From Candidatus Gastranaerophilales bacterium (GTDB lineage Bacteria > Cyanobacteriota > Vampirovibrionia > Gastranaerophilales > Gastranaerophilaceae): a stretch of 64,000 nucleotides of DNA. The DNA lies in the NCBI GenBank assembly GCA_947625305.1, contig CANQNW010000002.1, positions 156,581-220,580 of the forward strand, read 5' to 3'. Every line of letters starts with the position of its first letter. Within the stretch, counting starts at the first letter, position 1. The notes under the pieces were generated by a model, which searched no databases, had not been told where the DNA came from, and saw only the letters and a program-made list of their open reading frames with translations. The position numbers and the translations under genes were made by a program. This document shows positions 36,440 through 56,538 of this stretch, in pieces.

Positions 36440-37759
36440 ATGGTAAAAGTATATATAGGAATGAGTGCAGATTTATTACACCCCGGACACTTAAATATTA
36501 TAAATGAAGCAAGAAAAATTATAAATGAAATGGGGGGGGGGAATTTAATTGTAGGACTTCTTACCGATAAAGCCATTGCAAGTTATAAACGACTTCCTTA
36601 TATGAGCTGGGAACAGCGAAAAACTGTTGTCGAAAATATAAAAGGAGTAACAGAAGTAATTCCGCAGGAAACTTTAGATTATGTTCCGAATTTATTAAAA
36701 ATTAAGCCCGATTATGTATTACACGGTGATGACTGGAAAACAGGGATACAGGCAGCAACAAGACAAAAAATAGTAGATGTTATGAGCGAGTGGGGCGGAA
36801 AGGTTATTGATATTCCCTACACGAAAGGAATTTCTTCAACTCAATTAAATAAAATTTTAAAGGAAGTAGGAACTACACCTGAAATAAGAAGCTATAGATT
36901 AAAAAGACTTATAAATTCAAAGGATATAGTAACAATATGCGAAGCTCATAACGGACTTTCAGGTTTAATTGTTGAGAATACTTTTATTGAAGAAAATAAT
37001 AAAAAGATAGAATTCGACGGGATTTGGATATCTTCATTAACCCAATCAGCGGCACAAGCTAAACCTGATATCGGATACCTTGATACAACTTCAAGAATGT
37101 CTACATTAAATGATATTTTAGAAGTAACAACAAAACCTATTATATATGACGGCGATAACGGAGGACCAACCGAACATTTTATATTCACGGTTAAAACTCT
37201 TGAAAGGCTTGGTGTTTCAGCTATCATTATTGAAGATAAAATCGGATTAAAGAAAAACTCTCTTTTTGGAACGGAGGTTGAACAGAAACAAGATACCCCC
37301 GAGGATTTTGCTTTAAAAATCCATGCAGGTAAACAGGCACAGGTAACTGAAAACTTTATGATAATTGCCAGAATAGAAAGTCTTATTCTTGAAAAGGGTA
37401 TGGAAGATGCAATAAGTCGAGCTAAAACATATCTTAATGCGGGGGCTGACGGTATTATGATTCATTCCAGAAAAAATACTTTTGATGAAATAAAAGAATT
37501 TGCTTCAATTTATAATAAACTGCCGAATAGAAAACCGCTTATTGTTGTTCCTTCTTCTTACAGTACAGTTACGGAGGATGAACTTATTAAAAACGGAATA
37601 AATATAGTAATATACGCAAATCATCTTTTAAGAGCAGCATACCCTGCCATGGTTAATACCGCAAAATCAATCCTTGGAAACCACAGATGTAAAGAGGCTT
37701 CTGACGATTATTGCATGAAAATTAAAGATATTATTACACTAATTCCGGGAGCGCAATAA
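36440..37759 (+). CDS. cytidylyltransferase-phosphoenolpyruvate mutase fusion
   Basis: A 439-residue two-domain enzyme. Residues 1-135 are a nucleotidyltransferase domain with HPGH at 14-17 and the family ISSTQLNK end. Residues 150-439 are PEP mutase of the isocitrate lyase superfamily, with DGDNGGP at 237-243 and the diagnostic EDK(x5)NS at 265-274 (EDKIGLKKNS). The mutase turns PEP into phosphonopyruvate, the entry to C-P compounds. The first domain probably activates a phosphonate with CTP. A run of 10 G at codons 31-34 makes the frame slippery: 9 or 11 G would stop translation within about 12 codons. The next gene starts directly after the stop. Confidence 0.93.
   Translation: MVKVYIGMSADLLHPGHLNIINEARKIINEMGGGNLIVGLLTDKAIASYKRLPYMSWEQRKTVVENIKGVTEVIPQETLDYVPNLLKIKPDYVLHGDDWKTGIQAATRQKIVDVMSEWGGKVIDIPYTKGISSTQLNKILKEVGTTPEIRSYRLKRLINSKDIVTICEAHNGLSGLIVENTFIEENNKKIEFDGIWISSLTQSAAQAKPDIGYLDTTSRMSTLNDILEVTTKPIIYDGDNGGPTEHFIFTVKTLERLGVSAIIIEDKIGLKKNSLFGTEVEQKQDTPEDFALKIHAGKQAQVTENFMIIARIESLILEKGMEDAISRAKTYLNAGADGIMIHSRKNTFDEIKEFASIYNKLPNRKPLIVVPSSYSTVTEDELIKNGINIVIYANHLLRAAYPAMVNTAKSILGNHRCKEASDDYCMKIKDIITLIPGAQ
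36532..36541 (+). repeat. poly-G tract (10 G) in the PEP mutase fusion gene
   Basis: Ten consecutive G, of which the first ends an ATG codon and nine encode Gly-Gly-Gly. It lies in the cytidylyltransferase domain after EARKIINE. The assembled length keeps the frame open. Loss or gain of one G brings a stop (TAA) soon after. Confidence 0.95.
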
Positions 37760-55326: not shown

Positions 55327-56538
55327 ATGGAAATGAATTCTTATCAATTGAAAAAGCCCGCGGGGGGGGGTAAAACCGTTTCTAAAGAATCTTGTATACA
55401 AAATTTATTTTCAGTTAGAAACTTTTACGAAACAGATAAAAATGATATGGTTAAGTCTAAATACAAATTACTTAGTATCTTAGGTCTTAAATTTAAAATT
55501 AAAACAAAATTATCAAGGATTGAAAAACATCTTCTTCACCGTATCAGCGTACTTAAAGAAATACTATACGAAAAAGATGCCAATTTATATTCTGATTTTA
55601 ATTATATTTCAGCCAGAGAAGATATTAATAAAATCTATGAAAGTACAGAACCTGAAGATAAAGCTTTGGTTGATGCTCTTTATAAAAATCTGGACGAAAC
55701 GGCAAAAAACCACCTGACAGCAATTTTTACAAGAAATAAAAGAGTTGTTGACTATAAAAACTTACTGAAAAAACTACCCCTAAGCAATAAAATTCTAACT
55801 AAAGATGAATTGGAGCAATTTAATAAGACCCTTCAATTTAAAAAAGAAGTTGAATTTTTAGGGGATTGCTACAAATGGCATGACTACTTTTTACCTGTTG
55901 ATTTCTTCCAAGAATCCGTATTTATTTACAAACACGGAACTGACAGTTTGATTAATAAGGATATTAAAGGTGTAATCATAGATGCAGGTGCAAATATAGG
56001 CGACTCGGGAATAATGTTCGACAGAAACTTCCCTGATAACAAAATAATTTGCTTTGAACCTGAAGAACACAACTTAAATTTGTTACAAAAAACTTTTGAG
56101 CTTAATAAACCTAAAAATATTACCGTAGAAAAATTAGGAATAGGCGATGAAGTAACAACGGCTTATATTAATAATGCAGCCGGCGGTTCAAAAGTATCGG
56201 AAAAATGTGAAAAAGACGAACAAAAAATAAATATTACAACTATAGACAAATATGTTAAAGACAATAATATTAAAGTCGGACTTATTAAAGTAGACATTGA
56301 AGGCTTTGAATCTAACCTTATTAGAGGAGCACAGGAAACTTTAAGAACTCAGGCTCCCACATTACTCATCAGCATTTATCATTCAACGGATGATTTCTAT
56401 AAATTAAAACCTATGATTGAAGAAGTTATGAAAGATTCAAAATTTACTTACAGATATGACTTCTTTCAACCGATTTATAACAGCGCAATAGCTGAATGCC
56501 TGTTAACTTGCGAATGCATTAACAAAGAAGATAATTAG
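55327..56538 (+). CDS. FkbM family methyltransferase
   Basis: A 403-residue protein from the ATG at 55327, chosen for its AAGGAG and because the upstream frame covers the promoter. Residues about 215-400 are an FkbM SAM methyltransferase: KGVIIDAGANIGDSGIMFDR, ICFEPEEHNLNLLQ, TTIDKYVKDNN and LIKVDIEGFESNLIRGAQET. FkbM enzymes O-methylate sugars or other hydroxyls. The N-terminal 200 residues are helical, with LLSILGLKFKIKTK resembling the short motif seen in glycan-locus proteins. A 9-G run at codons 12-15 encodes Gly-Gly-Gly. A terminator follows. Confidence 0.9.
   Translation: MEMNSYQLKKPAGGGKTVSKESCIQNLFSVRNFYETDKNDMVKSKYKLLSILGLKFKIKTKLSRIEKHLLHRISVLKEILYEKDANLYSDFNYISAREDINKIYESTEPEDKALVDALYKNLDETAKNHLTAIFTRNKRVVDYKNLLKKLPLSNKILTKDELEQFNKTLQFKKEVEFLGDCYKWHDYFLPVDFFQESVFIYKHGTDSLINKDIKGVIIDAGANIGDSGIMFDRNFPDNKIICFEPEEHNLNLLQKTFELNKPKNITVEKLGIGDEVTTAYINNAAGGSKVSEKCEKDEQKINITTIDKYVKDNNIKVGLIKVDIEGFESNLIRGAQETLRTQAPTLLISIYHSTDDFYKLKPMIEEVMKDSKFTYRYDFFQPIYNSAIAECLLTCECINKEDN
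55362..55370 (+). repeat. poly-G tract (9 G) in the FkbM gene
   Basis: Nine G, read GCG GGG GGG GGT, at codons 12-15 from the ATG. A slip by one brings a stop before residue 60. It lies about 170 bases from the tract in the divergent operon. Confidence 0.95.

Follow-up and report, generated by a model that had tools for sequence, protein, structure and literature searches.

The window, which is the whole stretch of 64,000 nucleotides analysed here, contains a predicted surface-glycan/phosphonate gene cluster (36440..56538) in which seven genes each carry a run of 9 or 10 G or C. The cluster encodes four family 2 glycosyltransferases, one of family 8 and one of DUF4422/DXD type, and judging from these and the other gene families, its product is likely a surface glycan carrying phosphonate. 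In the following features, tract lengths come from the run count, and ON denotes a full-length reading frame in this assembly.

36440..37759, + strand: cytidylyltransferase-like domain plus phosphoenolpyruvate (PEP) mutase, 439 aa, ON (PF01467, PF13714; TIGR02320 above cut-off)
36532..36541, + strand: G10 tract, codons 31-34 of the PEP mutase gene, in the N-terminal cytidylyltransferase-like domain; 9 or 11 G would give 35 or 43 aa
37760..39919, + strand: phosphonopyruvate decarboxylase fused to an iron alcohol dehydrogenase, 719 aa, tract-free (TIGR03297 above cut-off)
39945..40901, - strand: radical SAM protein, 318 aa, ON (PF04055)
40084..40092, - strand: C9 as written, G9 in the sense strand, codon 270 of the radical SAM gene; 8 or 10 G would give 277 or 281 aa
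40923-41876 and 41897-42853: two tract-free radical SAM paralogs adjoining the preceding gene (PF04055)
42855, 49980 and 51001: the other family 2 glycosyltransferase genes (Pfam/NCBIfam)
43522..44562, - strand: family 2 glycosyltransferase (GT2), 346 aa, ON (PF00535)
44542..44551, - strand: G10 as written, C10 in the sense strand, from codon 4 of the preceding GT2 gene; 9 or 11 C would give 24 or 14 aa
44584: aldo/keto reductase (Pfam/NCBIfam)
45737..47482, - strand: DUF4422 plus DXD sugar-transferase protein (GT32-like), 581 aa, ON (PF14393, PF04488)
46063..46071, - strand: C9 as written, G9 in the sense strand, codon 471 of the GT32-like gene; 8 or 10 G would give 475 or 497 aa
47497: family 8 glycosyltransferase (GT8) gene (Pfam/NCBIfam)
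48326..50017, - strand: HAD-type protein, 563 aa, ON here (PF13419, PF00702)
48942..48951, - strand: C10 as written, G10 in the sense strand, codon 356 of the HAD gene; 9 or 11 G would give 363 or 366 aa
51963: PqqD-like protein (Pfam/NCBIfam)
52414: protein weakly like HprK-related kinases (Pfam/NCBIfam)
53926..55224, - strand: NTP_transf_5 nucleotidyltransferase, 432 aa, ON (PF14907)
55187..55195, - strand: C9 as written, G9 in the sense strand, codon 10 of the nucleotidyltransferase gene counted from GTG 55224 (start codon uncertain); 8 or 10 G would give 25 or 17 aa
55276..56538, + strand: FkbM-family methyltransferase, ON, divergent from the nucleotidyltransferase gene (PF05050; TIGR01444 above cut-off)
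55362..55370, + strand: G9 tract, codon 12 of the FkbM gene from ATG 55327 (codon 29 from TTG 55276); 8 or 10 G would give 68 or 32 aa instead of 420 (counted from TTG 55276)

An exact run count of the window agrees with the preliminary description, which had placed seven runs of 9 or 10 G or C at these positions and seen none longer than about 5 elsewhere: 16 runs are exactly 5 long, none is 6, 7 or 8, and seven are 9-10. The seven G or C runs of at least 9 compare with about 0.05 expected under a first-order Markov model of the window, and A and T runs do not exceed 8, despite an A+T content of 69%. Each tract lies in frame within a full-length gene (7/7), with G as the sense-strand base in 6 tracts and C in 1 (44542), and a one-base gain or loss yielded a truncated product in all 14 cases (seven tracts, each +1 and -1), even if a slip at 40084, in the radical SAM gene, touches just the last 40 residues or so. 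The earlier placement of the tracts inside genes thus holds, including the doubtful case at 55362, where the tract had been thought possibly to lie in a leader: ATG 55327 is preceded by AAGGAG and is probably the FkbM start, and the tract is thus probably coding. The earlier gene assignments were likewise upheld by Pfam and NCBIfam. All seven genes are ON in this assembly, where chance would give one in three, so the window by itself shows no switching.

Two of these genes have relatives that bear on how tracts are distributed. The run is missing from all 30 loci related to the PEP mutase gene that were inspected out of 55 retrieved; five of them encode the same Gly-Gly-Gly with mixed codons, so a tract is able to arise or vanish by synonymous change. 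Relatives of this enzyme with 74-78% identity occur in records titled Alphaproteobacteria, proteobacterium and Akkermansia (L072-L076, L081; titles as given), and there is a hint in the sequences that the phosphonate module may have been exchanged between gut bacteria. Outside the window, another radical SAM gene (L048:2941-3894, - strand) carries a G9 (tract at 3077) at the same codon as the window tract at 40084, with similar flanks.

We extended the run count to the genome from which the window derives (1.97 Mb, 26 contigs, 96.8% complete), and found 71 G/C runs of at least 8, with 24 and 47 on the two strands. The 64 tracts outside the window are 8 (6 tracts), 9 (36), 10 (17) or 11 (5) bases long, and the 71 runs of 8-11 stand above a valley, with only 10 runs of length six and 3 of length seven. 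Such a valley at 6-7 under a tight peak at 9-10 is unlike the outcome of steady mutational growth. A and T runs do not exceed 9 in 315 kb of this genome's sequence.

Automated classing assigned 21 of the 64 non-window tracts to ON genes, 2 to genes that are ON with the tract near the 5' end, and 9 to OFF genes split at the tract; 12 more are ambiguous in state (9 close to the 5' end, 3 close to the 3' end), and 20 are non-coding. One of the 21 (L032, tract at 3303) was rejected as an ON gene, being really a promoter tract with a chance open reading frame on the opposite strand. In three of the nine OFF genes, encoding WbqC, ATP-grasp and MBOAT proteins, the two halves match adjoining positions of one Pfam profile; in three others the right half alone matches Pfam (radical SAM, below cut-off; GT61; hexapeptide), and in the remaining three neither half matched in the Pfam search. 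Counted from the first base of the window, the tract in the WbqC gene is 150 bases to the left. Many tract genes belong to glycan or surface families, as judged by inspection of their Pfam matches.

A second class of tracts appears to lie within promoters. An exact TATAAT starts 0-11 bases past the run in 11 of the 71 tracts on the G strand and in 2 on the C strand, compared with about 1.6 expected per strand by chance. Two of the 11 stand apart: L036 falls within the WbqC gene, and L040 is ambiguous. In the other nine the spacer to a -35-like box measures 15-19 bases, and of these boxes four have three mismatches to TTGACA and one is perfect (L041 at 4199). The tract between -35 and -10 is predicted to set promoter spacing. 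A cassette of the form TTGC..-G8 to G11-TARAARTGG-TATAAT recurs in 4 copies in this genome's sequence and in 6 in that of the sister genome G030. No gene of 70 codons follows L038, one of the nine tracts; eight genes behind such tracts encode two Kelch-repeat proteins, one LicD protein and five proteins without a Pfam match, one of which carries what we take to be a lipoprotein-like signal.

The sister genomes differ in this class. In G030, TATAAT stands behind 8 (G strand) and 0 (C strand) of 62 tracts, and both genes tested behind its promoter-class tracts (2/2) encode Kelch proteins, while in G027 no promoter-class tract was found among the 47 of 55 tracts fetched (TATAAT counts of 0 and 0 on the two strands). 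On one G030 sequence (L217), promoter-class tracts at 5963 and 8198, 2.2 kb apart, have identical 40-base flanks on both sides; each precedes a 409-codon open reading frame, and the one tested is a Kelch protein.

Tract lengths were also compared between assemblies. The best database match of the window's HAD gene, a 366-aa protein from another assembly (P0001), has exactly the sequence that this gene would encode with G11 in place of G10. It is encoded on a 90,233-bp contig, the window's contig having 220,580 bases, and its protein cluster has three members; it may stem from a second assembly of the same sample. The GT32-like window protein (581 aa) has an identical full-length counterpart in the database, and no OFF allele of this second window gene was present among the database matches listed. 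For the MBOAT gene, which is OFF here, the database contains a full-length protein that is 90% identical. Two contigs of the same-genus genome G027, C16 and C24, have their ends in one shared tract, read as G9 in one and as G11 in the other, and overlap in 67 and 40 flanking bases that are all identical; the two ends resemble what a mixed population would leave in a broken assembly. The tracts at G027 contig ends were not used as general proof, some of their flanks being repeats, and this pair alone was retained.

Between sister genomes, 19 of the 71 tracts could be aligned across the tract with G027 or G030, in a comparison that covered the regions around tracts and left lost tracts uncounted. 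Six of these were close comparisons (about 90% identity or more over at least 500 bases), and 13 were set aside because the sequences were less similar or shorter, were repeats or, in the case of the PEP mutase of the window, came from relatives that have no run. Three of the six are equal and three differ by one base, so the proposal that all tracts vary between sisters was dropped. One of the differing tracts belongs to a transketolase-like gene (L064/L253), which has G10 and is ON in this genome, whereas its G027 copy, 94.8% identical in DNA, has G9 and is split. In a methyltransferase gene of G027, the upstream start and the rest of the gene are in different frames, although an ATG lies 8 bases past the tract, so that the gene may not be OFF there. 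The third differing tract is a promoter tract.

Gastranaerophilaceae are non-photosynthetic cyanobacterial relatives that live in guts; for the organism studied here, the titles of relatives' records point to a gut life. We drew 383 genomes of differing completeness from the order, 361 from the same family and 22 from six other families. At least one tract occurs in 320 of the 361 same-family genomes, at least 20 in 133, at least 70 in 37 and at least 100 in 12, with a median of 10 and a maximum of 179; in the 22 genomes of the other families the numbers range over 0-15. Within the genus alone (41 genomes) they range between 0 and 121. A quick MutS1 tree covering 39 of these genomes was built without bootstrap and without G013 and G033 (MutS1 missing or weak). 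Species that are rich (at least 18 tracts, a cut chosen after the counts were known) and poor cluster on it, yet 6 changes are needed, 3 of them forced by well-supported branches; G008 forms a long branch. On this tree, the idea that tract richness arose once in the genus was rejected. MutS1 scored above cut-off in 39 of the 41 genus genomes and MutL in 37, and the genome of the window has both, which led us to discard, for this genome, the idea of a mismatch-repair-deficient hypermutator. The genome with the most tracts in the genus (G017, 121 tracts; listed as 96% complete) gave no MutL match in the profile search, and neither did G002 and G006, which have 2 and 5 tracts.

We consider it highly probable that the seven runs are part of a genome-wide set of 71 poly-G/C tracts acting as contingency switches. 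Under this model, a tract would slip by one base in replication and so switch predicted surface-glycan and surface-protein genes on and off. In the coding class, one G gained or lost would shift the frame and truncate the protein, and another slip would bring the full-length product back. In the promoter class, a slip would alter the spacer between -35 and -10 and thereby change promoter strength. Here we infer replication slippage as the cause, along with its reversibility and rate, the promoter activity and the effect at the cell surface. Every defining feature of poly-G contingency loci that sequence can probe appears to be present: runs beyond what composition predicts, one-unit changes that alter the frame or the predicted promoter spacing, and lengths that differ, with ON and OFF forms.

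The preliminary description had likewise proposed poly-G slippage phase variation, and this stands as the best reading, supported by the split genes, the database OFF allele and the sister genomes. Its picture of a single multi-gene locus needs revision, for while the seven tract genes do lie in one cluster, the runs are not special to it, 71 being spread over the genome. Tract lengths, which it suggested comparing among strains, differ by one base in 3 of 6 close sister-genome comparisons and are equal in 3, and uniform tract length, which it had set against switching, is contradicted for the tract at 48942 by the G11 database allele. Its figure of 2^7 surface states is an upper bound that presumes independent switching.

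Other explanations of the tracts were weighed against contingency switching. Homopolymers are error-prone, and contig ends at tracts could be explained by poor coverage of G runs, so that the runs might be assembly or sequencing artefacts or miscounts and the split genes errors. We hold this to be very improbable, because errors would not produce a sharp peak at 8-11 with 6 and 7 rare, a recurring promoter cassette, or a strong difference in tract numbers between families of one order, and because database proteins reproduce the window's GT32-like product. It is also very improbable, in our judgement, that the tracts are mutational relics, left by a G-run-expanding bias or weakened mismatch repair and not kept for switching. 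The span of 0 to 121 tracts within the genus and the missing MutL match in the most tract-rich of its genomes fit such a view; against it stand the MutS1 and MutL matches in most of the genus and in this genome, the few tracts of G002 and G006 despite their lack of a MutL match, the shortness of A/T runs, the rarity of runs of 6-7 and the many glycan or surface families among the tract genes.

Homopolymers can also cause RNA polymerase or ribosome slippage, and tracts acting in this way would give each cell a fixed mixture of products instead of heritable switching. The intact second halves of the OFF genes would agree with this, but the DNA tract length itself differs between assemblies and sister species, and the promoter class has no reading frame; we give this account almost no credence.

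Taking the family together, we think it likely that Gastranaerophilaceae hold one of the largest bacterial poly-G phase-variation systems, with tens to about 180 switches per genome over glycan genes plus a switchable promoter cassette, mismatch repair intact, and repeated gain and loss between close species. Random poly-G on/off switching is known mostly from pathogens. The available part of a review asks why phase variation at many loci appears to be confined to pathogens, and this question becomes testable in the family because 133 of 361 genomes have at least 20 tracts while close species have none; one can ask which ecology accompanies tract gain or loss. Phage escape and evasion of gut immunity are hypotheses only. 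In practical terms, single assemblies of Gastranaerophilaceae can show OFF glycan genes as if broken, and contigs of such genomes may break at tracts.

In the open-licence literature searched, the mechanism, slipped-strand poly-G phase variation, is already known, and no description of it in this lineage or of a repertoire of this size in the lineage was found there. No paper on poly-G phase variation in Gastranaerophilales or Vampirovibrion was found in that literature; the sole match for Melainabacteria with phase variation concerns flagellins, as far as its accessible text goes, and the accessible text of a match for Melainabacteria with homopolymer (PMC4040986) deals with sequencing-error correction. 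According to the available portions of two Campylobacter papers, 77 genomes hold 1944 poly-G/C tracts of at least 7, about 25 each (PhasomeIt, PMC6321876), and C. upsaliensis has 209 tracts of at least 6, of which 22 were observed varying (PMC539331). So far as these portions describe them, the Campylobacter loci share with ours G/C homopolymers in and before surface-glycan genes, frame-based ON/OFF states and many loci per genome, and they differ in that ours belong to another phylum, with family members reaching 179 tracts of at least 8, a recurring promoter cassette and mismatch-repair genes present. The promoter class resembles meningococcal porA as described in the available text of PMC3639595, with a G tract in the promoter whose length is predicted to tune expression; unlike in porA, one cassette here recurs before several genes, including those for Kelch-repeat proteins, its activity being predicted from sequence. 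Invertons, such as those of the Akkermansia capsule (PMC13343947, in the part available), likewise provide reversible surface variation in gut commensals, as we infer here, but they flip by recombination, whereas the sign here is homopolymer length.

Some individual tract genes deserve mention in their own right. An RNase HII-like open reading frame near a contig end (L049:25-477, + strand, PF01351) has an in-frame C10 at 330, its G030 counterpart has no run, and a tract in a DNA-repair gene is odd among surface genes. Two paralogous tract genes, both ON (L051:5894-7963 and L052:7199-9256), combine PF02522 (Antibiotic_NAT) with DUF4910/DUF2172, and their setting suggests sugar or amino-sugar chemistry. 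Finally, a GT8 gene (L048:4675-5589, - strand) ends in a G9 directly before TAA, so that a slip would alter the C-terminal tail only; such a tail change by slippage is described for Helicobacter canadensis in the accessible text of PMC2823697.
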